Shown one piece after another: positions 11,201 through 53,200 of a DNA stretch of 64,000 nucleotides. The notes beneath the pieces are model-generated. The model worked only from the letters and a program-made list of their open reading frames with translations. It made no database searches and was not told where the DNA came from. The position numbers and the translations under genes are program-made. Numbering within the stretch: the stretch's first letter is position 1; each line of letters starts with the position of its first letter. Source of the stretch: Chiridota heheva (lineage: Eukaryota; Echinodermata; Holothuroidea; Apodida; Chiridotidae); contig JAIGNY010001437.1 of NCBI GenBank assembly GCA_020152595.1, positions 2,256,001 to 2,320,000 of the forward strand, given 5' to 3'.

Positions 11201-14200
11201 CATAAATGAATGCCAGGTAAACTGCTCCTGGTAAGCTAGAGGACATAAATGAACGCGGGGTAAACTGCTCCTGGTAAGCTAGAGAACATAAATCAACGCC
11301 AGGTAAACTGCTCCTGGTAAGCTAGAGAACATAAATGATCGCCAGGTAAACTGCTCCTGGTAAGCTAGAGAACATAAATGATCGCCAAGTAAACTGCTCC
11401 TGGTAAGCTAGAGAATATAAAGGATCGCCAGATAAACTGCTCCTGGTAAGCTAGAGAACATAAATGATCGCTGGGAAAACTGCTCCTGGTAAGCTAGAGA
11501 ACATAAATGAACGCCAGGTAAACTGCTCCTAGTAAGCTAGAGAACATAAATGATCGCTGGGTAAACTGCTCCTGGTAAGCTAAAAAACATAAATAATCGC
11601 CAAGTAAACTGCTCCTGGTAAGCTAGAGAACATAAATGAACGCCAGGTAAACTGCTCCTTGTAAGCTTAAGAACATATATGATCGCCAAGTAAACTGCTC
11701 CTGGTAAGCTAGAGAACATGAATGAACGCCAGGTAAACTGCTCCTGGTAAGCTAGAGAACATAAATGATCGCCGGGTAAACTGCTCCTGGTAAGCTAGAG
11801 AACATAAATGATCGCTGGGAAAACTGCTCCTGGTAAGCTAGAGAACATAAATGAACGCCAGGTAAACTGCTCCTAGTAAGCTAGAGAACATAAATGATCG
11901 CTGGGTAAACTGCTCCTGGTAAGCTAAAAAACATAAATAATCGCCAAGTAAACTGCTCCTGGTAAGCTAGAGAACATAAATGAACGCCAGGTAAACTGCT
12001 CCTGGTAAGCTAGAGAACATAAATGATCGCCAAGTAAAATGCTCCTGGTAAGCTAGAGAACATAAATGAACGCCAGGTAAACTGCCCCTGGTAAGCTAGA
12101 GAACATAAATGAACGCCAGGTAAACTGCTCCTGGTAAGCTAGAGAACATAAATGAACGCTGGGTAAACTGCTCCTGGTAAGCTAGAGAACATAAATGAAC
12201 GCCAGGTAAACTGCTCCTGGTAAGCTAGAGAACATAAATGAACGCCAGGTAAACTGCCCCTGGTAAGCTAGAGAACATAAATGAACGCCAGGTAAACTGC
12301 TCCTGGTAAGCTAGAGAACATAAATGAACGCCAGGTAAAGTGCTCCTGGTAAGCTAGAGAACATAAATGAACGCCAGGTAAACTGCTCCTGGTAAGCTAG
12401 AGAACATAAATGAACGCCAGGTAAACTGCCCCTGGTAAGCTAGAGAACATAAATGAACGCCAGGTAAACTGCTCCTGGTAAGCTAGAGAACATAAATGAA
12501 CGCTGGGTAAACTGCTCCTGGTAAGCTAGAGAACATAAATGATCGCCAGGTAAACTGCTCCTGGTAAGCTAGAGAACATAAATGAACGCTGGGTAAACTG
12601 CTCCTGGTAAGCTAGAGAACATAAATGATCGCCAGGTAAACTGCTCCTGGTAAGCTAGAGAACATAAATGAACACCAGGTAAACTGCTCCTGGTAAGCTA
12701 GAGAACATAAATGATCACCAGGCAAACTGCTCCTAGTAAGCTAGAGAACATAAATGATCGCCAGGCAAACTGCTTCGGTAAGCTAGAGAACATAAATGAT
12801 CGCCAAGTAAACTGCTCCTGGTAAGCTAGAGAACATAAACAATCGCCAGGTAAACTGCTTCTGGTAAGCTAGAGAACATAAATGATCGCCAGGTAAACAA
12901 AAATTCTCAACCAATATTCTAAAACTGACATGGCTCTATTTACCTGCACAATTACTTGTACTAATAGGCAGCTTTGAACCATTTTACAAAACATGTGATG
13001 TATTTTTTCTATCTCACTAGCTTACTCGAGCCCCCATATTTTAGAGCCATAATGGAGAACAGGTTTCATTTTGTAGTTAAATAGTTTTAAGATAGTTTCA
13101 GTGGGAACATCACCAAAATTTCGAAGATCATTAAAGAACAAAATGGTTTGGTACTTTGATTTGCTAATCTACTGTTAGTTTAAGCCCAAGAACCAGAAAC
13201 AGAAAGAACCAAACTAAGATTTGTAATTAGTAATAACTTCCATTTTTTCACCACCAAACTGCCACTTCTCATTTCTTTTAAGAATTCTTCCCTTTTAAAA
13301 ACAACGACCTTAAGACTTATTAACATTAATTTGTAAAAAGAGGATTGACAAAATCGAGCGAGACCATCCAAGAGCCTCTGCAATCCTGTAATAGAACGGC
13401 TGAATAAAATAAAATCATCTGTGAACATAAGATGAGTGAGCGTTAAACTTCCCACTTGAACTCCATGAAAACCAAGTTGGTTCGTTTCTTCATTAATATC
13501 ATCTAAAAATACATTGAATGAAAGTGGGGACAATGGTGACCCTTGCTGTACACCTTTCTGGCATAGAAAGAAATTAGAATATTCACAATTACCTCTTACA
13601 CAAGACTGTAGTCCCTCAAACAAAGACACAAGAACATCAAATAAATTACAATGTAAGCCTTTACTATGAAGCTTCCGCAGTACTGTCTGCCTGTCTACAG
13701 AATCAAAACTTTACGAAAGTCAATAAATGCAGTATAAAAACGCCCTCTTTTCCTACCAAGATACTTGAATATAATTGTATGCAAGATAAACACATTGTCT
13801 ATTGCCCTATGTCCTTTTCTAAAGCCGCTCTGGTAAGGAGAAACAGGGTTTACGTTAACAGATCAGAACTGTAATCTACCAAGTAAGATATTGGAGAAAA
13901 CTTTACCTAAACCTGATATCAAACTAATACCTCGGTAGTTATAAGTATCACCAACTCTTCTACTTTTATGAATAGGTATAATAACACTCGATTTCCATCT
14001 GAGAGGGAAAAATCCTTTCGTAAACAATACAATAAAAAGCTTGTGTAAAACATCAATCACCTCAATAGAAGCATTCTTAACAAGTTCAGCGGGAATTCTG
14101 TCAGACCAGGTGCTTTACCCTCACGTAGAGCCTGTATATTTTGTTCAGCCCCCTCTTTGTGTATACATATATCAACACTTTCAATTATGTTCGTTTGATC

Positions 14201-17200: not shown

Positions 17201-20200
17201 TTTCAGGAAGGTTTCTTGTAGGCAGAAGATGACCAGGGTAAAGGTGGTGGCCAGAGGGTCAATTTCTTCCGAGTTGGCCTTAAGGCTCCTGATGGTCCAT
17301 TGTGTAATGTTGTGAGTGTTATGTTTGGGGAGGTTTAACAGCACCATAAAAGCTAGTTGTGCTAGGGTAAATTAGATGTCAGGGGAGAAGAAAAGGTTGA
17401 AAGGAGATGGTGAGGTAAGCAGGGTTAAGGAGGGAAAGATGAATTCAGATGGTGTTGTAGTATTTAATGTGATGCAGGAATGAGAGCATTTGAAAATGAA
17501 ATATAACCTGGCTCCCAAGAGGCTTTATCTTTAGTGATATTGTCAGAATGGGTGACATCCAAGAAAAACCCATTTTTTCCTCCAATTTTTATTACATTTT
17601 TTTGTTCCACATACCATCCCACCCTGTCCATCCTAATTCATTGTCTGTACACTGGCACGCTACATAATGATATACTCTAAAGCAACTAGATCTTCTACTG
17701 CACATCCTAAAGAAACTGATTATGACAATTTACTATTTCTGTCTCATATAACTTAATATTACACATTTTGAATTTTGGATAAAAACAAACAAACAATATC
17801 CTTACTTGTTGGGACTGAGCCTTTTGCATTCATGGAACATTTGAAGATACCTCCAGATTCAGAACCGATGATGAAGACATTTGGATCTTCCTTCACATAG
17901 GTAATACTGTTAACTTTGAAAGGAAGAGACAGAAATAAGGGTCAAATAACATAAATACTGCAACAGATTTCTTTTATTTCCTCTCTTTTCCAGCACATTC
18001 AAACAAACCACTTGCAGGTATCTTATACTGCATTATAGACTGTTTATATGCTTTATTTTGCATTTGCTTTAAAGGGCAGTTGGCCAAACAGTGAGGATTA
18101 ATTATTGGCAAATTTATGCAAATTTTGAAGTAACAGATTCTAATCTGTCCAAATTAGACACTCGCATTACTAAAAAAATACATGATAGTATTTATCCAAA
18201 ACAACAACGGTTGATATGAATATTCAATTGAAAGACAAACAGGACTTGCAGGAATAAAAATTTGCAAAGTTTAAACAAATTTTGCCCTCCTTTTTGGTTG
18301 AGTACTCACTTAACTTTAATTTTCCTGTTGTGAGCACTGCATTATGTCCTTGAGCGAGAAACAATACTCTACCTGCTTCAGTCCACTCAGCTGTAAAATG
18401 AGTACCAGCACTGCTGGGGAGTTAATCTGCAATGGACTGTCCAGGGGAGGGGGGTCATGTACTCTCATCCGCCATTAAAACCGGATATAAGCACCAACTC
18501 TATGAGCCTAATGTCCCTGATGGATTTAGCTTAACTCATTTAACTACTTTGTCCTATTATATACATTGGATTCAATTTTAGACACTTGAGGCAGCCTGCA
18601 GTACCTTACCTCCCATTTCCTTGTCTCCTCTGACCTTTGATCTTGATAACATGGCTGGCATACTGCTGGCGAGCAGCACAAAGCCTTCTCTCAGCTGCAA
18701 AGCTTTCTTCCTCTCCATGATGTCCCACATGAAGATCTTACCATCGCTGCTGGTCGATAAAACCTACAGATTTGATCACAAAAAAGGCAACATATAAATA
18801 TCTTAGATTTCTATATTTGTTGGACATTAAAGGTCTATGGACAAGTAGAGATGTTATATTCACCAGAAAAGTCTGAAAAAATTATGAACAGAAAGTCTTT
18901 AAATTTGGTTAAAAGCACCTGTAGCTTCCAAGTTCTGGCCAATCAAAGTTTAAAGAATGTTTAATGTATGCAAAAGCTGATGTATGAAAGAGGGGAAAGC
19001 TAAAAATCTTGAGTGTAATTTTTTCCATTTCAGTCACTGAAAATCATCAACTTTTTTCTCCTGCTAAACTTGATAAAAGGTATGATGCAGATTCAAATCT
19101 CTTGACCATGCAACTAACATTGATGAAGGAATATGCATAATTTAGGTTCGAAAATTCAAAATGCTATAAAATTGGCCAATTTTTTAACCCATTTTGATGA
19201 AACTGTTTGCTATTTTCAAGATTTATAGCATATTTCATGGTTTGTAGCATATTTCCATGATATATAGCATATTTCATGGTTTGTAGCATATTTCCATGAT
19301 ATATAGCATATTTCATGGTTTGTAAGCATATTTTCCTGGTTTGTAGCATATTTTCCTGGTTTGTAGCATATTTTCCTGGTTTGTAGCATATTTTCCTGGT
19401 TTGTAGCATAGTTTCATGGTTCAGTTGTAGCATATTTTCCTGGTTTGTAGCTTTTTTTCATGCTTTGTGGCGTATTTTCCTGGTTTGTGGCATCGTTTCC
19501 TGGTTTGTAGCATAGTTTCCTGGTTTGTAGCATTTTTTCCTGGTTTGTAGCATATTTTCATGGTTTGTAGCATATTTTTATGCTTTGAAGCGTATTTTCA
19601 TGCTTTGTAGCCATTTTCATGGTTTGTAGCATATTATCATGGTTTGTAGCATATTTTCATGCTTTGTAGCACATTTTCATGCTTTGTAGCATATTTTCAT
19701 GCTTTGTAGCATATTTTTATGGTTTTGTAACATATTTTCATGGTTTGTAGCATATTTTCATGGTTTGAAGCATATTTTTATGCTTTGTAGCATATTTTAA
19801 TGCTTTGTAGCATATTTTCATGCTTTGTAGCATATTTTCATGCTTTGTAGCATATTTTCATGCTTTGTAGCATATTCTGATGGTTTGTAGCATAATTTTA
19901 TGGTTTGTAGCATATTTTTATGGTTTGTAGCATAATTTTATGGTTTGTAGCATATTTTCATGGTTTGTAGCATATTTTCATGGTTTGTAGCATATTTTCA
20001 TGATTTGTAGCGTATTTTCATGGTTTGTAGCATATTTTCATGGTTTGTAGCATATTTTCATGCTTTGTAGCATATTTTTATAGTTTGTAGCATAATTTTA
20101 TGCTTTGTAGCATACTTTCATGGTTTGTAGCATACTTTCATGGTTTGTAGCATTTTTCATGGTTTGTTACGTATTTTCATGGTTTGTAGCATATGTTCAT

Positions 20201-23200
20201 GGTTTGTAGCCTATTTTCATGGTTTGTAGCACATTTTCAGGCTTTGTAGCACATTTTCATGCTTTGTAGCATATTTTCATGGTTTGAAGCACATTTTCGT
20301 GCTTTGTAGCACATTTTCATGCTTTGTAGCATATTTTCATGGTTTGTAGTGTATTTTCATGATTTGTAGCATATTTTCATGGTTTATAGCATATTTTCAT
20401 GGTTTATTGCATATTTTCTTCCAATTAAGCTCAAGTTGTTGCTACCTGTCCATAAATCTTTACTGTGCAGAAATATCACAGAATTTTGATATTTACATCA
20501 CCTTTGATTTTCTTAATTACTACTTTGAGATGAACCAAGTAGCAACAAGACTTATTCCAAAGTCATATTTTGCTCCTTATTCTAAAGTCATATTTTGCTC
20601 CTTAAAACAAGATAAGTACAAAGAAAAGTTACAAAGATAATTCATATACTTAAAGATATGCAAATTATCTAATCTTTTGCTCACTTAGTTTAATAAGTAT
20701 TTTATATTGCCCAGCTGTACACTCTGTTGTTGGAGTTAAAGAGGATCATCCTGGGGAACTTTTGTTTCAAATGTTGGCGCTAAAGTGGATCATCTTGGAA
20801 CTCTTCCCTTTCACCCAGCATTTTAGAAGAGAAAAAGTGCCACAACAATTTTTCTCCAAGATTGTAGACAACTCAAAATTAAGGAAGTTAAAATTGGAAC
20901 AACGTAAACCCATGTCTATAAGGGGTCCGAGAAAGAGTTAGATCTCTGTACAGCCGAAAAATGCAATCATGTGAGTTTGACCTGAATTTATAAGTGTGTA
21001 AAGGAGCTACTTAATTAAGCCTTTACCCTAAACCCTTTTAATCATAATGATCATGTTTTGATAACCTATTCCTCCCTCCGGGAAAGTAATGAAAATGAAA
21101 CTTTTAATAAGATCTGAAAAAGTATTCAAATTTCATTTTAAAGATGCTATTTCATGTTAACATGGAGATAATATAAATTACAATTCAATGTTTCTGATTG
21201 GTCGACATATTCAAACAGATACCGACAAGCCAATCAATAACCGCCAAGAAAGTGATGTCATTAGTATGTATCAGAATTATCGGCAATGATTCAAGTAGTT
21301 TTCTTGAGATGAGGTTCCCTCTTCAAAATGAGTATTTTGGAAAACATTCAGTTGATATTTAAACAGCACTGCCTCAAATCATAAAACAAAATTTTAAATG
21401 TGAAACCCTGACCACATATCTCTTGGGCTTTTCTGGATCTTCAAGCCACATGACCTGAGTGACTGGCTCACGATGAGAATCATCTCCAATCCCTGTTGAC
21501 GTGGCAACCAGCAGATCATCCTCTTGACTCAAGTCCCAAACAGATACCTGACCTGCCAGGAAAAAGGAAAGTGTAAAAGTTCTGGTACATACAACTTTAG
21601 ATCTTTTGCTTATGGGAAATCAGTTGCTTTTCTTCTCATTATTGCAGTAGAGAATTTCAAAACAACGGAATTAAATAAGAAAATGAAGAGCTTTTGCGTT
21701 GATGGCATCTAACATTTCATTTGATACAAAATTTTGAGAAATAAAATCAACTGATAATCAATTACCTCTTTCTATATTCTTGGAAAGAGTTTGTAAATAT
21801 TCCCACCACCCAGTCCCTTCTACAATCTTGCTTCGTAGTATCCATTTTCCAGCATTTGACATATGAAGAAAGCAGTTGTGTAGCTAGACTTTCTTGCATG
21901 AGGGGGGGAGGAGGGGAGGGTGGGGGTGGGAGGGGGTGGGAGGGGGTGGGAGGGGGGGGGAACCATACAAATCTGAAACCAAGCTACCCATCCCCCTCCA
22001 CCCTTAAAACAAACAAACAAACATAAAATTTGGATAAAGTTTTGAGGAAAACCTTTTAAGGAAAAAGTAAGATAGTTTGAGGAAACACTTCAGAAATTTT
22101 GGGGAAGATGTCGTATATGTTGGGAAAAGCTTTGGGAATTATTGAGGAAATACCTCTGATATTTTGAGGAAAAAAATCAGATATTTTGAGAATAAAATTA
22201 GATAGTTTGAGGAAAACCTTCCAAAATTTTTGAGAAAAAGTAAGATATTTTGATGAAAAACTTCAGGAATTTTAAGAAATAAGTCGGAAATTTGCTAATT
22301 CTAAACTGCTAAATATGCCTAAATTAAAAGATTCTTTTTCAGATATCTGTGAATATTTTTTCCAAGATGGCTGGTATAAAAGTGAAACAGCTAAAGGACC
22401 GATCACTTTCATCAGGATTACCAAAACAATCTACATGTAGCATACTGAATTTTATGTTGTGCAAATTGTCTAACTTTTTTTAAATTTCCAGCAATTGCCG
22501 GCTGTTGTCCCCCTGCCTCCCTTTAGCTACGCCACTGGAAGAAGGCTTCGTTCCCTAAAACTCACAAATCATTTACCAGAAGACTGCATATAGATTTGAT
22601 AGAGGTTTTCAAGATTATGAAAGAGTCAATACTCAAGTCTGGTTTGGTTTTAGTGACATTTTATCCACCAGAGGTCAAGACTGAAGGTACAGAGACCTTA
22701 TTTTTCAGTTAAGTTGTGTCTCAATAAAATGCCCATCCACAGTCTACTCTGTCATTGATGCTACCAGTAGTAATCAGTTCAAGGGGCGTTTGGACCGGCA
22801 TTTCAGGTGTAGGGGAGTTCCACGAGCTTTGCTCTCTCCCCCTTAATTCTTCCCACATTGTATACTGGTGAGATGTGGGACACAAGTGAATACTTCCCAC
22901 TTAACTCTAAAATAACATAACAAGATGATTGGCTAAGAAGGATGAATCACCCCATAAAAGCCCAAACTAACACCACAACCACCACAAAAAAATAAAATAA
23001 TAAAAGATGCCCAGAGTTAGTAAAGAACTTATCAATGTTGACTTTGAAATTGTGAACAGAATTGGAGCTAACTACCCACTCAGGCAAACCATTTCACTCA
23101 TTAGCAAGTCTTTGCGAAAAGCAAATGCTAACACTTGATCTTCCACTAACCGTGACCACTAATTTGCCACTCATCATGCGCATGAATATATCAATATGCT

Positions 23201-32200: not shown

Positions 32201-35200
32201 TGATTAAAAAGAGGACTACATCAAACATGCAGTCTTTTTACCAACTGTTTGTTCTTAGGTTTTCGTATTAAAATTTCACCCCAAACATGATCAAATTTGT
32301 TGATTTAGACCATTTTTAATGAAGAACTTACCCTTCTCCATGGGGAGATATCAGTCTGAGGGAGGGGAAGATACCAATTATCTCCATAATTGTTTTTACT
32401 ATCAGCACACTACCAGACATGGGGGGTTGCAAAAGGTGGACCCAATTTTGTCTATATTCAGTAACTTGTGGAAAAACTTATCCTACTCGAACACTGAAAG
32501 TGACAATAGCGATAAGGAATGCCAAATTGGTCAAGATTTCAAACTGTATGTTAATCAACACTTGTGTGCCAAACAATTCAAAGATGGTGGCGAAGAACAA
32601 TCTTCCAAAAACACCAAAAAGCAGCAATATGCATCCAAAAATGTATAGAAAGTACAGATGCTTGTTCTCAGACCAAACATGTTTGGGTAAATCTTTGAGT
32701 GAACCTGCCTTGAAGCAAGAGCCAGTGAAACTAAAAACCTGACATTTGAGAATTATCATTTTGTCCTTTGTGGTGCTATTCCTTCAGATCGAGGCCAAAA
32801 GTACAATTAAACACTCATCTGCTCTCATCATGAGATGTACCTCCACTTTCCGTTTAGTATGCACTGCAACCGCCGATTTTGGCCAAAATCAACGGTTGTA
32901 CATCACACGCCTCGCCAGAGCAAGGGCAACCTAATATGATATCATTATTTGCTTGGCATGGCACAGCTACGATCTAATTACATTGCCAACACGCGCGACT
33001 GTCTAATATGATGCCTCTATCTGATGCACTTTGGGCATATTATTAATGCCCCTATGATAGCATACTGAAAGGAAAGAGCTTGCACACTTAATGATAAAGG
33101 AAGAGTAAGTGACACATTGCCCAATTGTAAATATAAATTTTCCTCCAAGAAATACACAGTCTTGACCAGTCACAAGATAACCGGACAGAAAAATGCATCA
33201 CAGCAAATCAAACATGCTGTTAGAAATAACCACCAAGTGTTATCTTTTGATTTTGTTTTTGACAGTATTTATACTGGAACTTTTCTTGGTGAAAGTGATT
33301 ACCAGATTGATTTGAATTTTTTTTCCCAGAATGTACCCAAGTCTGGAAGCTTAAACCAAAAAACATTTTTCTAAGAAGAAAACTATGACTTCCATGGTAA
33401 AAGGGAAACGAAAGGTTAGGTGGAAAGCTCAAAAGATAAGGATAGGAAATCCTGGCTTAAGGTATGCATGGCGAAGGTTGCGTGACGTTAAAAGTAAAAA
33501 GAAAATAATTTTAAGAAGGTCAGAATTTATATGGTGAAATGCTAAAAGAGTGGCAAAATCTACCTTCTGCTGAGAAAGAAAAGGAACATGCAGCTTGGAA
33601 AAGGGAAAGTGATGTCAAGATACAGTACCTGGAAAAGAAGAGAACAACATACCTGCCTACCTAAGATTCTTTAAAAACTAACTGAAAACATACAGTAATA
33701 CTTCAGGTTTAAATGTTCCAATTTTGTGTGTTCTAAGATGATTAAATAAAATTTTAAAGTGAATATTAGCACCCAATTAGCCATCTGAATTTTCATAAGG
33801 GAAAAATAGTAAGTTCACAAGACAAGTGGTCATGCCATATATCAAAGTTTAGTTGAATGTGTAGTTTTAATGGTTGTAAGCTGAACTTTGTTTGGGGAAG
33901 TTTTGTTGTCGTATTATGAAGGTCAAAATTGAACAACAACATGTATTTGTACAAACTGTGTTTGTAAATTTAGTTGAAAACTTACATTTCATTAACTTCT
34001 CTGTTGATATTTTTATTTGCTACAATTTTTATGTCCTTCCAACTAATTTGCCATGACCTAAGTTTGACTCACTGTTATTTAAGTTTTTTTACGCAAGTAC
34101 AAAATTTAGACAAAGTTTATAACAATTGGTGCCAAGCGGGGACCGACAAATAAATTTAGATGTAGATCTTTAATTTTACAATTTGTTCATGTTCATGAAT
34201 ATAGAGTAAAGAATATATTTTAACCCTGTTAACTGAATTTGTCTAAAAGTCTTTGCATAATAAGTAAGGTGGGGAAGCTAGCTTACAGTAGCATTTTTAA
34301 ATAAAAAATTTTTTTAGCATGCTCAGTCCAATGTTACCAAGAACATTTAAATATGAAATTTAAAAGAGTAAGAGTATGGTAGAACCAATGCAGTGTTTTT
34401 GGATGATACCAGAAGTACCCCTGTGTGAGTTGAAAAAACCCACAATTAATTTTTGAAGTTCTCATACTCCAAAAGTCCACCTAGGGGTGAGGTCTACATA
34501 GCAAAGTTGAAGACATATCAAAAACAGCTTTGTAATTAAAAAAAGAAAAGAAAAGAAAAGGAGTTTGTTGTAAATGCATCCAAAAATCATTTATTTTAGG
34601 CCACAGCTAGTGCAAGGGAAGGTGTAATCCAACACTGTGGTTTATGTATCTGCTCAGTCATGCATGCTTCTAATTGCATCAAGTGGAAGAGAGTTAAAAC
34701 AGTCTAATTTTCTGAAGTTGGTCAATTTTGTGTGCTATTTTAAACAGAAGTTTGTTGTAAGATTTGTTTTTCATTGTGTATGCAATTAAGACATGGCAAG
34801 GTAGATTTATTTTCGAAGAGGATTGACAAGAAATTTTCTTAAATTTTAGAAGTGTGGTCAGAGGTTTTTGTTGGGAGCCTTAAGACCACACTGAAAAGAA
34901 TATAAGTTGGATTTAAAGTTACATGTCTTTGAGGAGTTTGTTATAACATTTTTTTTTTGTGTGTGCAATAAGATATTACAGATGCAATTCTTAGTGTGTG
35001 CTCAGGTAGATTTATTTTGGAAGAGGATTGATAAGAAATCTTCTGAAATTTTACATGTGAGGTCAAAGAGGTTTTTTTTTTGTGTGTCTTACGACCATAC
35101 TGAATAGAATATACAGTAAGTAGGATTTTAAGTTTAAGACTTACAGAAGTTTGTAATAACATTTGTTTTTCATTGTGTATGCAATAAGATATTACAGATG

Positions 35201-38200
35201 CAATGCCAACTTGCCAAGTGGTGTACTCGGGTAGATTTATTTGAAAGAAGATTGATAAGAAATATCATAAATTTTACGTGTGTGGTCAGAGGTTTTTTGT
35301 TGGGAGCCTTAGGACCACACTGAAAAGAATATAAGTTGGATTTAAAGTTACATGACTTTGAGGAGTTTGTTATAAGATTTATTTTTCATTGTGTGTGCAA
35401 TAAGATATTACAGATGCAATTGTAAAATGTGTGCTCAGGTAGATTTATTTTGGAAGAGGATTGATCAGAAATTTTCTAAAATTTAACATGTGTGGTCAAA
35501 AAGTTTTTTTTTTTTTGTCTTACGACCACACTCAATAGAATATACAGTAAGTAGGATTTTAAGTTTAAGATTTGCAGAAATTTGTTATAACATTTGTTGT
35601 TCATTGTGTACGCAATAAGATATTACAGATGCAATGCCAACTTGCCAAGTAGTGTACTCAGGTAGATTTATTTGAAAGATAATTGATAAGAAATATCATA
35701 AATTTTACATGTGTGGTCAAAGAGAAATTTTGTTGTGAGTTTATATGACCATACTAAATAGAATATAATTAGGATTTTATGTTATACGACTTTCGGGAGA
35801 TATAAGATTTATTTTTCATTCATGCAATAAGATCTAACAGATGCAATGCCAAGTGGTGTACTGTGGTAGATTTATTTGAAAAAGGATTGATAATAAATTT
35901 TACATGTGGTCTAGAGGTTTTTCATTGGGAGCCTTAGGACCATACTGAAAGGAATACAAGTTGGATTTTAAGTTTAAGACTTACAGAAGTTTATTATAAC
36001 ATTTGTTTTTCATTGTGTATGCAATAAGATATTACAGATGCAATGCCAACTTGCCAAGAGGTGTGCTCAGCCTGGAAGAGGATTAATAAGAAATTTTATA
36101 ACTTTTACATGTGTGGTCAAAGGTTTTTTTGTTGGGATCAGGCTTTTATGACCACACTGAAGAGAATTTAAGTAGGATTCAAGTTTATGATTTTCAGAAA
36201 AGTTTGTTATAAGGTTTGTTTTTCATTGTGTATACAGATGCCACGTGTATGCTCAGGTAGATTTATTTGAAACAGGATTGATAATAATTTTTCTTGAATT
36301 TAAAGTGTATGGTCAAGAAGGTTTTTTTTTTTATTGTCTTTTACGACCACACTGAAGAGACTATCAGTGGGATTTAAAGTTTAACACTTTCTGAGATTTA
36401 TGATAAGATTTGTTTTTCAAGGGGTATACAGTACGATATTACAGATGCAATTCCAAAAGTGTGTGCACAAGTAATATATTTGGAAGAGGATCGATAAGAA
36501 ATAAATAAGTCTGACAGTATTTTATTGTTTTGTATATTTTATTTAAATGTTATGTCTTCGATTTGAGAAAGATTTAAACAAATATATATCTTATGTTCTC
36601 AGAACGTTCTCAATGAGAGACATGGCTATTGCCAGGAATCCTTGCACAACAAAAGGGCAGGAAGGGGGTACATTTCTGTTTGGAATGGCACATTACTGAT
36701 GAAAATGTCCCTGTGCATAAAAATCTTTAAGCAAAAAGATCACCAATTTGGCTGATATTTTTCCACAACATGACCAAAACTCATGCTTAACTGTTTTTAA
36801 AATGGGCAAATACATATAAATATTAAACGCAATTCAGAATCCAGGTTGGGCACATTTGGTCCACTTTTCCTTGTATATTTGAGGGCACCTCTTGTCCCTT
36901 GTGGTAAAATTTAAGGAAGAGGGGAAATCTCCCATGCTGCAGCAGACGTCCTTGGCCACTTTCTGGTATACTTGATTTAAGGGGGTGAAAAAACAAACAT
37001 GAACATCTTTAATTTTGTAGTTTGTTGATGACAGCATTTGTTTCTCAGGTGCATAGTTTTCCCTTGAAAGGAAGTTTTGATATAAAAATTCCAGAAACTA
37101 GATAGCCATTGGAAAAATGAACATGTCGGTTGGAAATTCAACCGTTCCTTCAGAGGCACCTTCACGAATTCACCCGGTTGGAATTTCAATGCCTGCACAC
37201 CCCCCTCACCCGATCAAAAGACTGTAGCAACGTCCTTGCTCGCAAGTTCATAATATGGGAACTTTTTGTACATCATGGCCGAAGGGTTAGTGAAAAGGTC
37301 CAAAACTAGTCAGAAAAAGGGTTAATCATTTTATTGTGGAGTGTTAATGTCCAAGGTATTAATTCAAAAATATTCCTTATATAAAAAAAATATTTGCTGA
37401 TTTTTTTTTTTTTTTTTTTGCTTTTGAATTTTTTCTAGGATTAATGTGATGCATAGAAATGGAAAAAAAGTTTAAATCTGGCCATCACCACCCCTCCCCA
37501 TGCAAATCGTTTTGTTTTTTTGGCCACACCCCTGCTAGTGAGTGGCGGGCATCTTTTGACTTTTAATACTTGCCTCCATTCCCGTCATATTTTCATTAAC
37601 AAATCCTTTGTCCATCCACTACTTCATATAGGCCTATCTTTCAAACTAAAATGCAATTTGAAATTCAATTGTCATTTTTCTTGTTACCTATTGTGTAAAT
37701 GAACATTGTTTATACGCCACCTTGGATAGTTTGGGAGGATCAAGGGGATCTGGAAAACCACATACCTTCCCAAACAGTTCCCATTTTTTCAGTTGCAGGA
37801 GTGAAGGGTCCTTTTATATGAAATAAAAAACGAACCCCTTTCAGAATCTGGGCTACGTGCATTAATCTTCCTACCTTCCAAGGTTTCAATCCTTGCCATA
37901 TTTTTCACCCTTGTACACTATGCTGTGTATGTTATATTAGTCTTACGATCTGTTATCTTTACATTCTGCATCAAAAATGCATCTACACACCTGATATTTT
38001 ATAATAAAATGGTCGGGTAGTCAAATTCATTTTATGTAGACTTGCCTTTCCAGTTGTTCATACAATCAAACATCCAAAATGCAATGCACCTATCCACTCC
38101 CCCCGCCCCCTCCCCCCACCAAAAAAAGTCATAAGTTTTCTGTATGAAATTCATGTGAAAACGGAATATATTCCTTTAATGAAGGGCAGCAAAACTGAGA

Positions 38201-41200
38201 GGGGGAAAGGTAAGGGCTTCATTAGTAACTGCACTTTTAGACATGTTACACAGAAATTATATAAAAAAAGAGTATTACTTAATAACATTTTGCACCACAA
38301 AAGAACTGAAGATGAAAAAAGCGCACAAAAACTTTGCAATTGATCATCAGCACAATCTCAAACAAAAAAAACTCATGAGACTTGAGTAGAGTACATTCAG
38401 TATTTATTTTTTTATAATTTGGAAGATTGGACTAAAACAACTCAATTTAAAACAAACTAAGAAACCATTTTCTTTCTTCCAGCTGTAAGAAATAAAAGGA
38501 TAATTATCAAAACACATACCGAATGTACTCTACTCTACTCAAATCTCATGAGTTTCTTTTCGTTTGATTATGTATATTAAAGCAAGAAGATGTAGGGAAA
38601 CTTAAAAAAATACACCAGCAACTTTCACTGTGAAGCCTTATGTATTGTTACAACTTTTTTTTTTAACATTGCGTGATGTACAGATTCCAACTATGATAGG
38701 CCTACATGTACTTGTCTGTAGCTTATGATACAGGTCCCTGCTGAAACTCATCTCTGCACATAAAACAAGACACACAGACATACAATAAACTTCCTTGTAT
38801 GTGCAGGGAAATAAACACCAAGGCCAAATCCAGAAATACTTTGAGACTATGGTGAGGCAGGGAGTTGGAATGTAATTATGTTGTTTTTGAAGCATGGGGC
38901 TATCATGTTGCAAGTAAAAGTGCTTGTCTATATTTATCTGTAATTGATGCAGTTTTTCTAGAATCTTTTTTTTTTAGCAAAGACCCTAATGGTGTTAACG
39001 CCTCATGTAATATGAGGAGTTCGGTGTGACATGTAGTTTTGATGAAGCATTGCATGGTTAATAGTTTTGTATTTGTTTGCTCAAAGGCTGGAGGCTTTGG
39101 AGTTCAGACTTTTTGGTTGTAGTTGTATCGCTTAAAAGGTTGATGCCAGTGTGCAGACTGAGTTTTGTGGCTTAGATGTGGGAAGTCAGACATGTGATGT
39201 TGGTAGTCAGACATGTGATGTTGGTAGTCAGGCATGTGATGTTGGTAGTCAGACATGTGATGTGGGTAGTCAGACATGTGATGTCGGTAGTCAGACATGT
39301 GATGTCGATAGTCAGACATGTGGTGTCGGTAGTCAGACATGTGATGTTGGTAGTCAAACATGTGATGTGGGTAGTCAGACATGTGATGTTGGTAGTCAGA
39401 CATGTGATGTCGGTAGTCAGACATGTGATGTTGGTAGTCAGACATATGATGTTGGTAGTCAGACATGTGATGTTGGTAGTCAGACATATGTTGGTAGTCA
39501 GACATGTGATGTTGGTAGTCAGACATATGATGTTGGTAGTCAAACATGTGATGTTGGTAGTCAGACATGTGATGTTGGTAGTCAGACATGTGATGTTGGT
39601 AGTCAGACATGTGATGTCGGTAGTCAGACATGTGATGTCGGTAGTCAGACATGTGATGTTGGTAGTCAGACATGTGATGTTGGTAGTCAGACATGTGATG
39701 TTGGTAGTCAGACATGTGATGTTGGTAGTCAGACATGTGATGTTGGTAGTCAGACATGTGATGTCGGTAGTCAGACAGGTGATGTTGGTGGTCAGACATG
39801 TGATGTTGATAGATCTTTAGGTGAGGAATTTTTATGGGGTTTCTGTTTGTGTAGATAGTCTTGGATCAGATTCTGTTGACAGGCCTGATGTAGGGCTGTC
39901 TGTAGTTGATGATTGTACAGGTACCATTGGTCGTGAGGTTGTTGATTGGTCTTGTACAATGCCTGTGGATTCTGCTAGGAATAAGGTGTTATGGATAAGG
40001 CATTCACTTGTAAGGTATGTTGACACAGAGTTTTGTGGCGTACATCGTAGTAGAAGAATTAGAGTGTCTTCCAGGGGCTAGGGTTGATGATGTTAGTTTT
40101 CGTGATGAGACTTTATGTAAGGGTGATGATACCGTCATAGTTTTCATTAGTACAATTGAAATTTTAAGGAGAAATGTTGATTCTGTTAGGCTTAGTTTCA
40201 TGGATTTGTTATTCAAGTTGAAGGACACAGGTTGTAGGCTTCTAGTTGTTGGTCTGTGGCCGCATAGGGGTAGTTCTTTCATGATAGATAAGATGTTTTC
40301 GATCAATAGTTAGTAGAGAGTAATTGTCATCTGTTTGAGTTCAATTTTGTAAATTTCTGGCATGAGTTTGAATCTTGGCTTGATTGGGTTCATGAGAGAT
40401 GGTTTGCATTTAACATGATGAAATAACCATCATTACGAGGGATGGTCCATCAATCATTCATGGGTTTTGCAGTCCTCCCAAGCATATAATGTATACTTTT
40501 ATTTAGGCTCCACCAAGGACGAATCTTATTTGCATCACTGAACAGCAGTTATGTGTCTGGAGCCCAAGATGAATGACCTATTGTGTACAGTGTAACAGTA
40601 GCTGGTTGCTAACAAGTGAACTGTGAATCGACTAAGAAGATGTTGTCAGTTAAGAAGGTATACATTACCTCTGTGTTGTGTATAGTGTAACAATAGCTGG
40701 ATGCTAGTCAATGAAGTGTGAAGAGTCTCTCGGGTTGAATGGTGTGATTACCCCTGATTTTGAGAAAATTGGGGTTGTCGGGTTGGAGGGGTGTCGGGTT
40801 GGAGGGGTGTCGGGTTGGAGGGGTGTAAGGGTTAAAAATTCTTAATGAGTAGGAAAGGTGCTTGTGTTCTTGCTAGGGTTGTCAATAGTGGTAGATTAAA
40901 TCTAGTCGTAGATTAAAGGTTATGTTTTCAAATGTTCATAGCATTTTGAATAAGCATGATGAGCTTCTGACTGAAGTTTCAATTAGTAGATCTGATATAA
41001 TTGGTATTACTGAGAGTTGGATTTATAGTAAAATTAGTGATTCAGAGATACATATTCCAGGACACTAAGTTTTCAGGCAAGACAGAATAGATACTCTCAA
41101 TGATAGAGGAGGTGGTGTTTTGTTGTTTGTGTAAGACAGTTTTAATTGTATAGATAGGACAGCTCAAATTTCTTTTGTTTTTCCAAATTGCCTATGGTGT

Positions 41201-44200
41201 GAGCTTATTGTTGATGGCGATGTTGGTAGTTCAGTGGTTGTTGGTGTTGTGTATAGATCACCAAATTCTAGTCCTGAGAACAATCAGAAATTGCTTGACT
41301 GCTTCAGGAAAGTTGCTTCTAGAAGGGTTATTGTCTTTGGGGACTTTAATTTTCTAGACATTGATTGGAATATTTGTACTACATGTAATGGTCCACATGG
41401 AAAAGATTTTCTGGAAGTTGTATCCGACTGCTTTTTCACCCAGCTTGTGTTGTTTTCCACGCGTGGTAGTAATTGTCTGGATTTGATTTTCAGTAGTGAA
41501 GAAAGTATGGTTAGAAATGTGCCAAGTAGCAGTAAGGTAGGGTGTAGTTATCATGACCTCATTGGTCTTGGTCTGTATTGTTTTACAAAGGTTTCTCCAG
41601 CTAATAAACTGCTTAGATTTTAAAAATGCTGACTTTGTTACACTTCAGGATAATTTGTCATTCGATTGCACTTCTTTGCCCTGTGACTTCGATCCTTCTA
41701 AAGCAAGGCATGTTTTCCAAATTTAAAGTTTTGGAGGATGTAAATAGGTTTGTCCCATTAAAGAAAGTCTGTAAGCAAAATCAACCAGTATGTATGTCTC
41801 GAGAGGTTTTGCGAGATGTTCGGAAAAAGAAGAAGTTGTGGTGTTCTTATAAACACAGTGGGTGTCCTGTGGAGCTTGCTAGGTATAAGGATCATGAACA
41901 GTTTAGAAAGGGTTTGATAGGAGATATAAAAGTGCTTTTTGAAAAATGTTTGTCCATAGAGGTTAAGATTAATCCTAAGTCATTTCATTCTTATGTTCTC
42001 TCAAAGTAAAAAAACAAGGAAGTTGTTGATCCCCTTCAGGGTAATGATGGTGTTACTATCAATAGTGGTAAGGATATGGCTGAGGTTTCGAATGACAACT
42101 TTGTGTCTGTTTTTAACTAAGGAGTCGTTTGCTGATGATGTAGATTATCTTAGTGTGCACTCTCTAGTATCCATTAGGGATGTTGATTTTTCGGTTGATA
42201 TTGTGTCTAAGAAGTTGAAGGGTTTGAATTCAAATAAATCACTCGGTCCAAATGGTATACATCCTGCTGTCTTACGTGAGTGTTCTGATGTTGTTTCTGT
42301 TCCCCGGAGTATTATCTTTTCAAAGTGCCTTGATGTTGGTGTTGTTCCTAGTGATTGAAGAATTGCTAATGTTACTCCTATCTTTAAAAAGGTGACCACA
42401 GTTTGCCCTGTTATTATAGGCCAGTGAGTCTTACTAGTGTTGAGTACAAGGTCATGGAGTCCAATGTTAAGGATGTTGTACTAGATCATTTACTGGTCAA
42501 TGGTTTGTTGAATTTGTCCCAGCATGGGTTCTTACCTGAGAGGTCTTGTGTTTCTAATTTATTGGAGCTTCTTGATGATGTCACTAAACTAGTTGATTCT
42601 TTTCGTAATGTGGATGTTATCTATTAAGATTTCCAAAAAGCATTTTATAAGGGTCCATTAGGCAGGCTCATGATGAAAACAAGAGCACTTGGTGTGAAGG
42701 GAGTGTGCCAGGTGGATAAATGGTGGTAAGTTGACAAGTCACGTAGAGATGCTGTTAATAGTGAAGTATCTCCTTGGAAGAAGGTTACAAGTGGTGTTCC
42801 TCAGTGTTCTGTATTGAGTCAGCTTCTGTTCTTAATCTTCATTGATGATATGATTTACCTTGGCTCCAGGATTTGTAAATTTGCTAAGCTGTGCAGGATT
42901 GTTGATGATGCTAGGGATTCTTCACTTTTGTAAAGTGATCTGGATAAGTTAGTTTCTTGGTCGCAGATGTGGCAGATGTCATTCAATGTTGATAAATGCG
43001 AAGTTATTCATTTTGGTCAGAGCAATTTGGCTTTTGATTACTGCATGAATGGTTCAAATCTTGGTTGTGTTGATCAAGAAAGGGATCAAGGTGTTGTCAT
43101 TTCTAGCAATCTAAAGCCTTCTTAACAGTGTGTTTTAGCAGCTGCAAGGACACATATGATACTTGGTTTGATTAGAAGAAATTTTGGTTTTCTTGATAGA
43201 GAGGTTGTTCTTGTTTTGTATAAGCAGTTAGTCAGGCCTCACCTTGAATATGCTATTCAGGCTTGGAGTCCCTTTTATGGGAAGGATAAGTTCATTTTGG
43301 AGCAGGTTCAGCAAAGAGCCACTAGACTTATTCCCGAAGTAAGGAATCTCTCTTATGAATCTAGGTTGCGAATTCTTGGTTTGACCACGCTTGAGTTGAG
43401 AAGAGTATGTGGTGATAAGATTAAAGTTTTAAATTCCTATCTTGTAGTGATGATTTGACTTCCTGTTATTTCTTGCATATTTCAGCTAATCTTCATGTGA
43501 TATGTGGTAACAGTTTGAAGTTGACCAAAGAGTTCTCATGGATAGATATTCGGCATTTTAGCTTTTCGCAAAGAGTTAATAATGAGTGGAATGGTTTGCC
43601 TGAGTGGATAGTTAGCTCCAATTCTGTTCACAATTTCAAAGTCAACATTAATAAGTTCTTTACTAACTCTGGGTGTCTTTGATTTTTGTTTCGTTTATGT
43701 GGTGGTGGTGGTGTTAGTTTGAGCTTTTTATGAGGTGACTAATCCTTCTTGTTCTTCTAGCCCATTGTCTTGTTATGTTATGTGAAAGGTGCATTTTCCT
43801 CCCGCCTCTATGTACAAAGAATTTATTCTAAAAGTTCTTGCTAAAATGCTCCATGTTAAAACAGGAGTGGTGCCAGTGGGATGACTATGCCTCATCTAGA
43901 ATAATAGATCAAACCTTTCAATTAGCAACTAGAGTTGTCACTGTTCATAGTGTAAATATATCACAATTATAAATAAGGGTTTCTGAAAAAAGGGGAAATA
44001 CATTAATGTTTTAAATATATAGACATTTGATGACTAAATGTCGTGGTTGGAAAGACTTAACTCTTTTCCCCAGTGTTTGTTTTAGCAAAGTTTTATAACT
44101 TCATAATAGACCTTCGCTAACATCAAAACAACCACAGTTGTTTTATCAGCAACTTGTGGAGACCCACTGGGGATCGAATCCAGAAAGCTAGATTAGAAAG

Positions 44201-47200: not shown

Positions 47201-50200
47201 CATGCACTTATATTCTATACTATGAGGAATGTCTACCTCTTTGTCTTCTTTTCCCAAGGACTGGTTCTCAGCATCTTTTGTGGTTATATCTTTGGTCTGG
47301 CAGCGGTTGGAGGTCAATGACCTGGAAAAAGTAAACAGAAATGCAGTACCTAATGAAATCTTTTACCTTTACACAATCTTTAAAGAGACTTTATTAATTC
47401 AAAATGGCTGTACAAGAAAAAGAAAACTAGAACATCAATGATGTAGTAGCTCAACATATATCTTGGTGTGGGTATACAGTAAGCCTGTTTTTGTGAGTGG
47501 TTTGTTAATTTGAGTGGGCTGAGGTTGTTAGGAATACATGTCAGCAGGTCAGTGCTGGGGCTAGGGAGAATCAGCCCCCCAATTAGTTGCAGACCTCTAA
47601 TAAAATTGATGCCGTATTTTCGCTTTCGTCATTGAAAATAAGCAAATTAATCAAACTGCTCCCACTCAGCCTGGTGACCCACCATACTGCCATAGAGGCA
47701 TTATGCACTAGCATCCAAAGGTGGTGGAAGCCAGGGACTCGTCCCACCACACCTACTATCATTATTATGTTGCAAAGTTTAAAAAGTGCCCTTTCAACTA
47801 TTGAAAAACTGCCTTTAGCTTAGCATACAGTAGCTGCCGTAGTACTTAAATTTCTTCAGGTCTTGGGTGGGTGGGGGCAGGAAGGGGAGAAGGGAGAGGA
47901 GGGGAAAAGACCCCAAAAAAATCCCACTTACAAGTGGAAAATTAAATTCCTATCAATGTCCAAGTTGTTCCTATAATCGGAAAATCTCAAGTTTCGGAAA
48001 ATACCCTTTAATTTTCGGAAAATTGTCTTTAATTCTCAGAAACTTTTCTTGATTTCCGATTAATTTTCTTTGATTTTCAGAACTAAGGTTGTGCGGGATC
48101 CCGCAGTCATGTAAGTTCCACCATATTCCGATCCCCGTATTGTGCAATCCCAACAATATAAGGATTCGTAACTATAACCGGGTATTCAGGAGTGATAAAA
48201 AGTGTTGAAAAAAAACCACATGATATTTTCCGGGTTTTTTTTAAGAAATATTAAAGGATTAGTTGAGGAGTCCATCAAAAAATAGTCAATCTGGAGAATA
48301 TCAAATATATAATACTTTTATTTATAAATTTGGTCCAACAACACCAATGAGCAGAAAAATTCCTTATGCCCACTGTCTTACAACAAGAGTTGTAGTTGCC
48401 AAGTACAGTAATATTTTATCATTTATGCTTATAAAAGGAACAAGTAACTCGAAAATGCTTTTCCACTATTTAAATGACACTAATTGTCTCAGAAGAGAAA
48501 GAGACATACCTCAGCGATGGGCTTAACTGCAAAAAAAAAAAAAACCTCTGTATATTGAGAATTCAAATATTTCTATGATTACCCATTTGGAACAACGTTT
48601 TGTATCAAGAAAGAATTCCAATCAATTTGAATAATAAACACGCTTCATACCAGAAAGTATAAGTCATGATATATCTCTCTTAAAAGAGCTTCTTCCATCC
48701 AAGTTTGAACCTTGTGGATTGTTTATCATTACTTGTCATCCTTGTCTTATACCACATGTTCAATGGATAATACAGTTATTAAGGGTAGAACAGTTCATGA
48801 CATTGCATAAAATGCCTGCAAGACTGGTTTGCATGCCCACGACTGATGATAACAGAAATGGAATTAGGTGGAAGTTCATGTCAACCCTTGAGGACTTTGA
48901 TTTTGCTGATGAAATCGCTCTACTTTCATCTACATATCAACACATGCAAACCAAAGTGACCAGACTTAATCAGTATGCTGCACAAACTTAAGAATTAATA
49001 AGGAAAAGACAGAGCTCATGGAAGTTAACATCAAATGTGCAAACAAAGTTTGTATCGATAACCAACAACTAAATGAAGTAAACAAGTTCAGATACCTTAG
49101 TGCAACAGTAAGCTTACAAGGTGGTGGTGAAGAAGATATCCAAAACAGAATTTCTAAAGCAAGAGTAGCATTTATAAAGTTAAATAAGATATAAAACTCA
49201 AGCATATTCTCAATATATACAAAATAAAACTGTTTAACTATCTTTTCAAGTCTGTACACTTGTATGGTTGCGAGACATGGAGAGTTAATGTGGCAGATAA
49301 TAAAAAGCTGGATACATGCATTAAAATGTCGATTGGGGTAAATTAGGTACGCCATGATGGAAAATAAAGGATTTAAGAAGTTGAAACTTTCATTTCTACT
49401 GTACTTTACTGGTCATGCTCCTCATGAAACAGATCTAATACCTACACGATTTAATGCAAATAAATAGAGGTGTGTATGACTTTTTAGAGGGGGGTTGGGG
49501 TATGAAAATATTGCAAGGTTAAAAGTGAAAAGAAAAAAAAACTAGCAAAAATACTGTAGAATCCAGGCAAGAAGAGCACACTGATTTATCTTAACTCTTT
49601 GATGTACCAATATCAAAAACTTAAATTATATAAACTTCCATCACAACCAGCTCAATTAGTTTATTTTTCTACAATTCAAACATCTAAAGTAAGCGCATCT
49701 GCTACTTCACGTATACTCCGGTTACAGAGCCCCTTATATTCTCCATCAGCTTCAGGAAATTCATGTCTTATTCAGAGAACGACACAGGATGGCACAATTT
49801 TTCAATTTTTCTTCCCGAGACATCCATGTGTCCATGAAGTAAATGTTCTGTAGGCGATTTATCTATACTGTCTGCAAAACAAAAAATGATATAATACCAT
49901 AAAGCATTATTACAAACCCATTATTACATAATCATCAAGCAATTTTTGAGCATTCGACTGAAAATATATTTTCCAACATAGAGTGTATAACCAAATCTGT
50001 GTATCTTCCGTTAATGATAAAATGACACGTTTAATTAATTGCAACAGAGAAAACATATGACTTGCTGTGTTTGGAATAGAATATAGAAACACTGTCAGAT
50101 AGATTACAGTATTTTTAGATGTTTCTAAGAATCAGCATGTTTGGATAAAAGATTGGTAAATACTATGTTGTTTAAAATTTCTCACACTAGTATTCGGACA

Positions 50201-53200
50201 CACAGTATTATTAGTGTTGGTAGTAAGTTTTGAAATTCAAACATGCAAAATAATTTTATAACATGAAATGACTTTAATCATGTCTTTAAATCAATTTGTA
50301 ATTTTCAAATTTGTAACATTTAATATACCGGTGTTGGTCAGTAGGAAGGGCAAAGGGATACCAAAATAATTGGGATTTACTGTACACTGTATATTGAAAG
50401 TAAAAATGGAAGTAAACGGTAACCTACTTGTTTTCAAGAATGGCTGAAAAGACTGTAGCATCACCTCTCATATGCCGCTGCATTGTCAGACTTATTCCAA
50501 GCACAGCGCAACACACTGAATTAAAATCTGAGTGAGCTGTAATGCAAACTTTATCATCGCTTATTTGGTCCAACAATGAATTAAGAGCTGTTATTTCCAA
50601 ACAACAAGACATTCTCTTAAAAGCTGGCATTGGTAAACATGCCCCGCAGTCACACCTAGTGTTGGCATTGGAAAACATGCACCACAGTCACACCTAGTGT
50701 TGGCATTGGTAAACAAGCACCACAGTCACACCTAGTGTTGGCATTGGTAAACATGCGGCGCAGTCACACCTAGTGTGGGCATTGGTAAAACATGCACCAC
50801 AGTCACACCTAGTGTTGGCATTGGTAAACATGCGGCGCAGTCACACCTAGTGTTGGCATTGGTAAACCTAGGGCGCAGTCACACCTAGTGTTGGCATTGG
50901 TAAACATGCGGCGCAGTCACACCTAGTGTGGCATAGGTAAACATCCCCTGCAGTCACACCTAGTGTTGGCATTGGTAAACATCCCCCGCAGTCACACCTA
51001 GTGTTGGCACTGGTAAACATGCACCACAGTCACACCTAGTGTTAGCATTGGTAAACATCCCCCGCAGTCACACCTAGTGTTGGCATTGGTAAACATGCAG
51101 CGCAGTCACACCTAGTTATTCAACACATCCTCCCATGGGCTCCACTATGTCTTTGGGAGTTTTTACGATCACTCACTGGGTTGTTGACTTTATACACTAG
51201 CCCTGGAAGAGATGCTTTTGCTAAAACAAAATAACATTTAATACCTTGAAAATTCCTAAATCCATTATCTAGTGTGTCCTTATAAACAAACAAAACTTTC
51301 TCAACAATTCAAGGTGCAAAAATAATCAAAGAAAGTTGCTGAAACAACAAGCAAAACGACATCGGCTAACATTAAATCAATGGTAAGTTAAATTTCCATA
51401 GTCTATGTATGGGTGGTAGTTGACTTTGTATGGCCGGCAAGAGAAATATGAGGCTTGAAACACAAGTATTGCAAAGTTGACTAAGTCACACCAGTCCACA
51501 TTAGAAAGTCTAACATTAGCTTCGGTATCATCACTTTCTGATTCAGTACTATAACGTTAGCATTACTGACACTGCCAGAACTGTCTTGTACTCGTCTCCG
51601 AACTGGTTCAAAATCGTAAGGTGTAGAACCTTCCGTCATTGGAAAATACCAACAAAAAGTGTCCGTCTTTGTAATGGAAGTGGCACATGAGATGAAACTT
51701 AAAATTATCAGACTACGAGTGTAATATTCCCTGCGCTCTTCAGGCAACTGCTATAATTACATGCTATTAGCATGGAGTACATGTACACAATGTCACCGTA
51801 ACAAATCGAGGTGGCTCGCCAACTTGCTGTAAAGTCCAATTCGATCAAAAAATCAGGATATGTTATTCTTTGATAACTAGGAATAATAAAACAAGAGCAC
51901 AAAATATGGTTTGGTTTGGTTTATTGATGTTTAACGGCACCACGACAGTAAGAGTCAAATGTGCCAAGAGGATGTTTAATAATAAATAATGGTGTAAGAG
52001 TTACAGTGGAATAGTGAGGAGATGGAAGCTTTGTAAGGGAGATAAAGGGGAAAGGTTGAATGTGGGAGAAAAATTTAGGTAAAAAAAAAAGGGGTGTGTA
52101 AGGTTAGGTGTAGAAGGGGAGGAGATTATATGTGGTGGAAGAGGTTATTGTTGCGAGTTGATGATGTTTGAGGAAGAATTGTTTTTGAATAGGTCCGAGA
52201 TTGAGGAGAGTGAGGTGAGAAGAGATCTGGAGCTCTGATATAGGGGACAGGTTAAGAAAATATGCTTGATCGAGAGATCGATGTTGCAAGTGAGGCAAAG
52301 AGGGGCAGGGGAGCCGGATAAGAGATGGGAGCGAGTAAGAGAGGAGTGGCCGAGGTGGATGCAGGTGACAACAGTGTCTTCCACGCAATTGCGACTATCC
52401 AGAGGAGTGTTGGTCCCATCTTTGGATTTAATGGTGTGAAGTTAATTACTGGTTTAGTGATTCCAGGATTTTTGCCAGGTTTTGTTGATGTAGTTGGAGA
52501 TGGAGAGATGGAGGTCTGAGTGTGGAATAGGAAAAGGAGAGATGTTATTTGATAGAACTTTGATGGCAGCTCTGTGGGCTCTCGTGTTGCCAGGGATGCC
52601 GATGTGGCTGGGAATCCAGAAAAAGATCATTTTCTTTCCTAGCAAGGAAAGAGTGTGGAGTCTGTTGAGGATTTGTAGAATGAGAGGGTTGGGCCAGAGC
52701 ATGTTGAGGATGCCAGTGAGGACAGATTTAGAGTCAGAGAAGATGATGAAATTGGCAGCGGGAAAAGAGTTTTATGAAGTTGAAGGCTAGGAGGATGGCC
52801 TTCACCTCGGCAGAGTAGATAGAGGTGCCGTGCCGCCAGGTGACCTTGAGGAGAGGGTAAGGCCAGGACAGGCGGTGGCGGCTGCAGAGGAGCTTCCCGT
52901 GTGGAGCCATAGGTGAAGAGGAAGGAGTAATTGCAGAAATGTCTACTGAGTTGACAGAATTTGGAGTGGATGAAGGCTGGGTTGCGGAGAGCTTTCAGCT
53001 GAAGGAAGAAAGACCAAGGTAAACCTTGAAGGGGGTGAAGGAGGGGGGAGGGAAGAAGTGAATTGTCCAGGTGGATGTAGGTGGGATGGTGTGTCTAACA
53101 CTTAAGAAAATGTTGATGTTGGCTTTGGAGAAGTGAGAGAGCATCCGAATTTCGAAAGGTGGGGGGATGCGGTTGTTGAGATTGAAGAGGTTGGAAAAGG

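Follow-up and report, generated by a model that had tools for sequence, protein, structure and literature searches.

Thirteen times over, the minus strand of this locus repeats what resembles the end of an intron followed by the first codons of a zinc-motif exon, and the question is whether such an array serves splicing or marks the decay of a gene. The first-pass annotation had placed it in a small P2X7-C-like gene ending at 50424, and had considered a splicing slippage zone, a source of isoforms with motif duplications and, as a third option, a sign of decay. The locus was analysed within its window, the whole 64-kb stretch of DNA under study.

The 38-bp array and the gene that contains it

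In the tandem-repeat listing of the window, positions 50625-51116 form an array with a period of 38, 12.9 copies, 89% matches and a score of 758. A pattern search for CTAG followed by GTGTGACTG found 13 minus-strand sites within the array, each running on into zinc-motif-like codons, which bears out the 13 copies of TAG|GTGTGACTG described by the first-pass annotation. The first base after TAG lies, from unit 1 to unit 13, at 51111, 51073, 51035, 50997, 50959, 50922, 50884, 50846, 50808, 50769, 50731, 50693 and 50655. The spacing is 38 in ten of the twelve intervals, 37 once and 39 once, with no unit skipped. The longer string GTGTGACTGC is present in nine units and GTGTGACTGT in the remaining four.

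The piece upstream of the array, here called exon A, ends in GACTG at 51492 (minus strand). When GACTG is joined to the last unit (acceptor 13), the motif WCDCGAC is read, so that the motif claimed for the junction of exon A with the start of exon B was recovered with that unit. The last unit is in frame with a domain recognised by Pfam, and its first codons are repeated by the other twelve units; the array is therefore clearly beyond chance. The last unit continues into an open exon. The array was therefore formed from the beginning of a real coding exon, and it is gene sequence and not an inserted sequence.

Tandem arrays are common in the window, where the repeat listing gives 51 overlapping rows, including large arrays of 54, 79, 60 and 30 copies. 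These comprise a 39-bp unit repeated 54 times at 2941-5032, over which the long open frames stem from the repeat itself; a 43-bp unit repeated 78.7 times at 9519-12898, with AG|GTAAAC, G|GTAAG (plus strand) and a CCAGG...CCTGG palindrome in its consensus, so that donor-like signals are found in this array as well; a 20-bp unit repeated 60 times at 19211-20418; and a 21-bp unit repeated 30.5 times at 39175-39812. A 431-bp unit is also repeated 3.4 times at 34800-36231. The 21-bp array is open in several frames, with CDVGSQT repeats on the plus strand and HHMSDYQ repeats on the minus strand, and its Pfam match to a herpesvirus glycoprotein tail (E 1.4e-08) most likely reflects repeat composition. 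Eight open frames were sent to Pfam. Retroelement domains were found in three of them, a reverse transcriptase at 13180-13710 (minus strand, E 5.1e-14), an endonuclease at 41135-41623 (plus strand, E 1.6e-09) and a weak RNase H match, below the cut-off, at 52454-52771 (minus strand); four others had no match at E 0.01. With so many arrays and retroelement remnants nearby, a minisatellite close to a gene is unremarkable here, and it is the make-up of the array from zinc-motif codons of the gene itself that is remarkable. A 15-base pattern of the array matched 41 stretches in viral contigs, once in each, and these matches were taken as chance.

The gene model consists of three candidate pieces on the minus strand. 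Exon A (51492..51639, 148 nt) extends from an ATG at 51639 to GACTG. Exon B (50428..50655, 228 nt) runs from the last array unit to ILEN, has an open WCDC frame from acceptor 13 alone, and is followed by a donor-like CAA|GTAGGT. A putative ordinary intron (49872..50427) ends in a strong TTTTTTGTTTTGCAG with its last base at 49872, and leads to exon C (49727..49871, the 3' end being approximate), which carries the end of the domain, YR.xAYRxFxxW..IVPSCVV..IRxxFP...GEYKG, together with in-frame stops, as seen in the comparisons with PF20478 and the P2X7 chains. The gene end at 50424 was thus misplaced, since the sequence continues from the donor-like site after 50428 to exon C at 49871 to about 49727, a piece that the first-pass annotation had missed.

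The joined pieces matched the Pfam profile PF20478 (P2RX7_C) with E 1.1e-14 and 55.2 bits, above a cut-off of 23.5, and solved P2X7 receptor chains with E about 4e-08 (phmmer). The domain search on which the P2X7-C-like assignment could have failed thus upheld it. Exon C alone, read in one frame throughout with X at its stops, gave E 3.3e-11 and 43.9 bits against PF20478 and a best E of 8.2e-06 against the P2X7 chains. Exon B without exon C fell below the PF20478 cut-off (no match in one search, 6.5 bits in the other), even though it stays open for 76 codons; the family assignment thus depends chiefly on the third coding piece.

Vertebrate P2X7 proteins share the consensus clusters PxWCxCx2C, LCCRx3GxCITTS/T and (L/I/V)PSC(C/S)x3IRx2(F/Y)Px5Y(S/T)G, as given in the available text of PMC7016195. 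The pieces contain the conserved cysteines as WCDCGAC, SCC, CIT and VPSC...IR..FP.....Y.G. The full vertebrate strings are not matched, as the P ahead of W is missing, CC and CIT lie farther apart, V stands in place of C/S and K in place of S/T. In the phmmer alignment with P2X7, clusters 1 and 3 and CIT were lined up and CC was gapped. With the ATG at 51639 as the start, the motif would be preceded by about 49 codons, and the domain lies at the C-terminal end. The predicted layout from that ATG onward fits the stand-alone ZCD, or nanor-like, genes of animals, as far as these are described in the available part of PMC7016195. The locus resembles these genes (PTHR36981, PF20478) and the P2X7 ballast in its C-terminal domain, WCxCxxC, CC, CIT and VPSC...IRxxFP...Y.G, and departs from the stand-alone genes, as presented there, by a shifted frame, three stops, the putative insertion and the array.

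A tblastn search with five query pieces (E up to 1) found no second copy of the domain in the 64-kb window; it returned the locus itself, including array units, and one further match of 13 residues (E 0.87), taken as chance. Eleven stretches in viral contigs fitted a pattern from exon C and none encoded a relative, and no relatives were found in plasmids; neither is a promising source for an animal gene.

Reading frames and splice signals

The frame opened by the ATG at 51639 differs from the frame of WCDC (read as NVDWCDC). Exon A is in fact two pieces, 51639-51553 and 51550-51485, in different frames, the shift falling between 51553 and 51550, and stops directly upstream close the WCDC frame. 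The gene model was therefore not usable as first drawn, with its ATG in one frame and its motif in another. In exon C, positions worked out from the aligned piece 49870-49727 place in-frame stops at 49861-49859, 49804-49802 and 49774-49772. Because these stops sit in one continuous frame that matches the profile well, over aligned residues 2-48, they are attributed to base changes, unlike what sequencing indels would give.

The consequences of joining exon A to each acceptor are similar in either frame. In the WCDC frame acceptor 13 alone keeps exon B open, and the other twelve meet a stop 34-127 nt past the junction; in the ATG frame all 13 acceptors meet a stop 14-89 nt past it. Since early stops follow nearly all acceptors, the rotating frames of the array yield truncation and not families of motif-duplicated proteins. 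With exon C closed as well, neither splicing slippage nor isoforms with motif duplications found support, and a functional slippage zone was rejected on frames and stops.

Pyrimidines were counted at the 17 positions from -20 to -4 of each acceptor, and donors were scored at nine consensus positions. The donor consensus is the one generic for animals. The background comprised the 7527 AG dinucleotides on both strands of the window and its GT sites. Against it, the donor of exon A fits 6 of 9 positions, which 18% of the GT sites in the window equal or better under the generic consensus. Acceptor copy 1 has 6 of 17 pyrimidines, and 86% of AG sites are as good; the other twelve have 10 or 11 of 17, and 31% and 19% of AG sites, respectively, are as good. 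The donor after exon B fits 7 of 9 generic positions (reached by 5.4% of 6859 GT sites), and the acceptor of exon C has 13 of 17 pyrimidines (4.1% of AG sites are as good). By these scores the intron between exons B and C looks real, and that between exons A and B resembles the background. The thirteen acceptors, at 6 of 17 for copy 1 and 10-11 of 17 for the rest, are thus not thirteen good ones when set against the 13 of 17 at exon C.

An open reading frame through the PF20478 domain is lacking: exon A is frame-shifted and exon C contains three stops. These disablements in the DNA make a pseudogene the best reading of the locus, the remnant of a PF20478 member and not a working member. The third option of the first-pass annotation, a sign of decay, is the one that the frame shift and the three stops favour. 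The sequence comes from a single assembly, and other individuals may carry intact alleles.

The 371-bp stretch and the 9-bp direct repeat

Between exon A and the array lies a 371-bp stretch (51113..51483, minus strand, GC 35.6%), a putative insertion or intron body, bounded by two copies of the 9-bp direct repeat GGTGTGACT. The left copy (51484..51492, minus strand) holds the putative donor G|GT, and the right copy (51104..51112, minus strand) is also the start of array unit 1. There are 14 perfect copies of GGTGTGACT, 13 in the array and one at the end of exon A, and the exon homology runs 8 bases beyond the putative donor. Outside 50600-51120, GT followed by GTGACT occurs at 2 of 6759 GT sites on both strands with the putative donor included, and at 1 of the 6758 others. 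When the flanks are joined across the stretch and the array, the reading is unbroken.

This arrangement suggests that 371 bp inserted into an exon that had been continuous, duplicating 9 bp of the target site. The first-pass annotation had named an intronless ancestral gene with the array merely inserted as a possibility that would undo its proposal. One part of this gained ground, as the 9-bp repeat favours an uninterrupted exon that received an inserted stretch; the other did not, the array itself not being the inserted part. The sequence distinguishes a duplicated target from a chance match between the start of an old intron and exon B with less than certainty, and the exact GT...AG fit at the seam would also be expected of a spliced intron.

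At the ends of the 371-bp stretch is a 4-nt terminal inverted repeat, TAGT, which was reached by 0.5% of 5000 shuffles; the similarity of the 25-nt ends was not significant (0.20). A blastn search (E up to 1) found no second copy of the stretch in the window, and besides itself it had just 14-23 nt matches. That the insert is unique in the window, and that its inverted ends are not significant beyond 4 bp, counts against an insertion.

The stretch has some further features. The heptamer AGTCAAC occurs three times on one of its strands, the first copy starting at the second base, and six times in the whole window on both strands; these copies are possibly subterminal repeats of an element. An acceptor-like tract, TTATTTTGTTTTAG, with 11 of 17 pyrimidines, ends just before 51220 (minus strand). 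The stretch was also considered as a carried gene fragment, and this was dropped because its 62-aa open frame at 51120-51308 (minus strand) had no Pfam match. An origin from an RNA family or a tRNA was likewise set aside, since Rfam gave no match at gathering scores and the window contains no tRNA.

Among the array units, a 14-column core around TAG|GTGTGACTG, ACTAGGTGTGACTG, shows no variation across all 13. With two array-edge columns dropped, where unit 1 differs, 9 of the minimum of 15 distinct changes fall within a 7-base patch of the 37 columns. In 200000 random placements the clustering was reached in 1917 and the invariant run in 1899 (about 1% each). A raw letter count puts 24 of 32 changes in 7 of 39 columns (0 of 100000 placements), a figure that counts inherited changes many times. 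The clustering may reflect constraint on the acceptor, or it may reflect CpG-rich sequence in the variable patch. An array that is purely passive would not have to include such an invariant run, which counts against regarding the units as passive copies.

Origin of the array and its relation to known systems

We consider it probable that the locus is a decayed stand-alone P2X7-ballast-domain gene (ZCD, nanor-like), in a genome that most likely belongs to an animal, that took up an insertion with a 9-bp duplication, the seam of which was then amplified to a mirage-type array. The zinc-motif exon of the minus-strand gene would originally have been unbroken through the WCD codons. A stretch of about 371 bp would have inserted within these codons and duplicated the 9-bp target GGTGTGACT. 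The right-hand seam, composed of the last few bases of the insert and about 31 bp of coding sequence, would then have been multiplied to 13 x 38 bp by slippage or unequal exchange. The outcome would be a mirage-type minisatellite, its "acceptors" passive copies of one AG|GT, and no protein or isoform function would be expected of it today. The array, the domain, the frame shift, the three stops and the 9-bp repeat are established directly; from them we infer an insertion rather than an old intron, the order of events and the absence of function. ACTAG precedes GTGTGACTG in all 13 units, as it does where the insert ends on the right, which makes it probable that the insertion came before the array. 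The two bases before the shared seam of about 5 bases are TA in unit 1 and AC in the other twelve, and since just these 5 or so bases are common to unit 1 and the others, the order of events rests on little. The units are taken as passive copies because they rotate frames, meet stops and have acceptor tracts ordinary for the window.

The insert may have been spliceable at once, as an introner is, so that the gene lived on, the acceptor was multiplied and the gene died later of other causes; this is a special case of insertion, the confidences of the explanations thus overlapping, and we regard it as unlikely though plausible. Its donor G|GT would come from the target duplication, and its acceptor from the last A of the insert and the first G of the right duplication (the repeat starts G|GT and the insert ends CTA). 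Splicing from 51492 to 50655 would restore the reading with no gain or loss, and the published introners include some that have 3-9 bp duplications and draw their splice sites wholly or partly from them (PMC9860276, in its available text). Against this stand the missing second copy of the element in the window, the weak donor (6/9), the very poor tract of the first acceptor (6/17 pyrimidines) and the lack of an animal precedent in PMC9860276, from whose main text Metazoa, mollusc and nematode are absent. The full sequence, in which one transposon-type insertion made a perfectly spliceable new intron in the zinc-motif exon and the new 3' splice site was amplified to a 13-copy mirage, is slightly more doubtful still. 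A similarly modest likelihood attaches to an ancestral intron between the W and C codons, with the 9-bp match due to chance and the 3' boundary alone multiplied, as in the lancelet globin BflGb6. The GT...AG boundaries are in place for it, and the same layout of an intron end with the start of the next exon has been published (available portion of PMC3087553), but the match between the start of the donor and that of exon B recurs, outside the array region, at just 1 of the 6758 other GT sites. The vertebrate ballast domain is, moreover, encoded by a single exon, exon 13, according to the part of PMC7016195 available, which argues weakly against an ancient intron; the main text of that paper does not contain the word intron.

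It is rather improbable that a coding minisatellite came first, the exon expanding as a 38-bp array and the 371-bp stretch entering the first unit later, with the 9-bp repeat a product of periodicity. Exon A ends in ACTGGTGTGACT and the units read ACTAGGTGTGACT, one base apart, as such an expansion might leave them, but the right end of the insert would have had to fall in register with the unit start by chance. A live gene that uses the 13 acceptors variably and makes motif-duplicated isoforms is very improbable. The preservation of TAG|GT in all 13 units and the invariant core speak for it, and it is opposed by the stops after 12 of 13 acceptors in the WCDC frame and all 13 in the ATG frame, and by the three stops in exon C.

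Insertion followed by amplification of the seam, the preferred reading, would combine features of two described systems. Minisatellite-like tandem duplications of exon-intron boundaries, termed "mirages", are described in the lancelet genes Adh3, BflGb6 and BflGb9 (globins), troponin C and PGBD5 in the available text of PMC3087553 and PMC3902484. As reported in those portions, many of the lancelet repeats have AG/GT signals, unit lengths in Adh3 range from 10 to 72 bp, and the authors infer that regular splicing is undisturbed. The BflGb6 mirage comprises the 3' end of an intron and the 5' part of the next exon (PMC3087553, same portion). The present array is like these mirages in its tandem units over a candidate exon-intron boundary, with AG|GT in 13 of 13 units here, and unlike them, as they are described there, in lying in a broken gene of another family with a 9-bp repeat bracketing the putative intron.

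Introners are transposon-derived introns with 3-9 bp target duplications; in some families the duplication supplies the splice sites wholly or in part, and in most cases the mRNA length is unchanged after splicing (PMC9860276, in the text available). The introner-type pattern is present at this locus in the direct repeat at both ends, the GT inside the repeat and the AG at the seam, the use of these splice sites being putative. The locus resembles introners, so described, in this direct repeat, in the splice-site letters at the seam and in the reading restored by putative splicing, and differs from them in being a single copy in the 64-kb window and in having an array at its 3' seam. The statement of the first-pass annotation that no case was described holds for the P2RX7_C family, as none was found in the literature searched, so far as its text was available, and does not hold for the phenomenon, since the lancelet mirages are published. 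Boundary-spanning arrays were thus already known, and what may be new is the combination of an introner-like insertion with a mirage at the seam.

The sequence does not uphold a functional splicing device, which is worth knowing before an RNA-seq effort is made. If the inferred order of events holds, insertion, amplification of the seam and gene death are recorded at one locus. If the host is not a lancelet, the array would be a mirage-like array outside lancelet genes, the sole setting found described in the available text of the literature searched. The locus bears on the origin of new introns and of unstable splice sites. Should the combined introner and mirage reading be true, new introns would be born with unstable acceptors, and intron gain would be linked to mirage formation.
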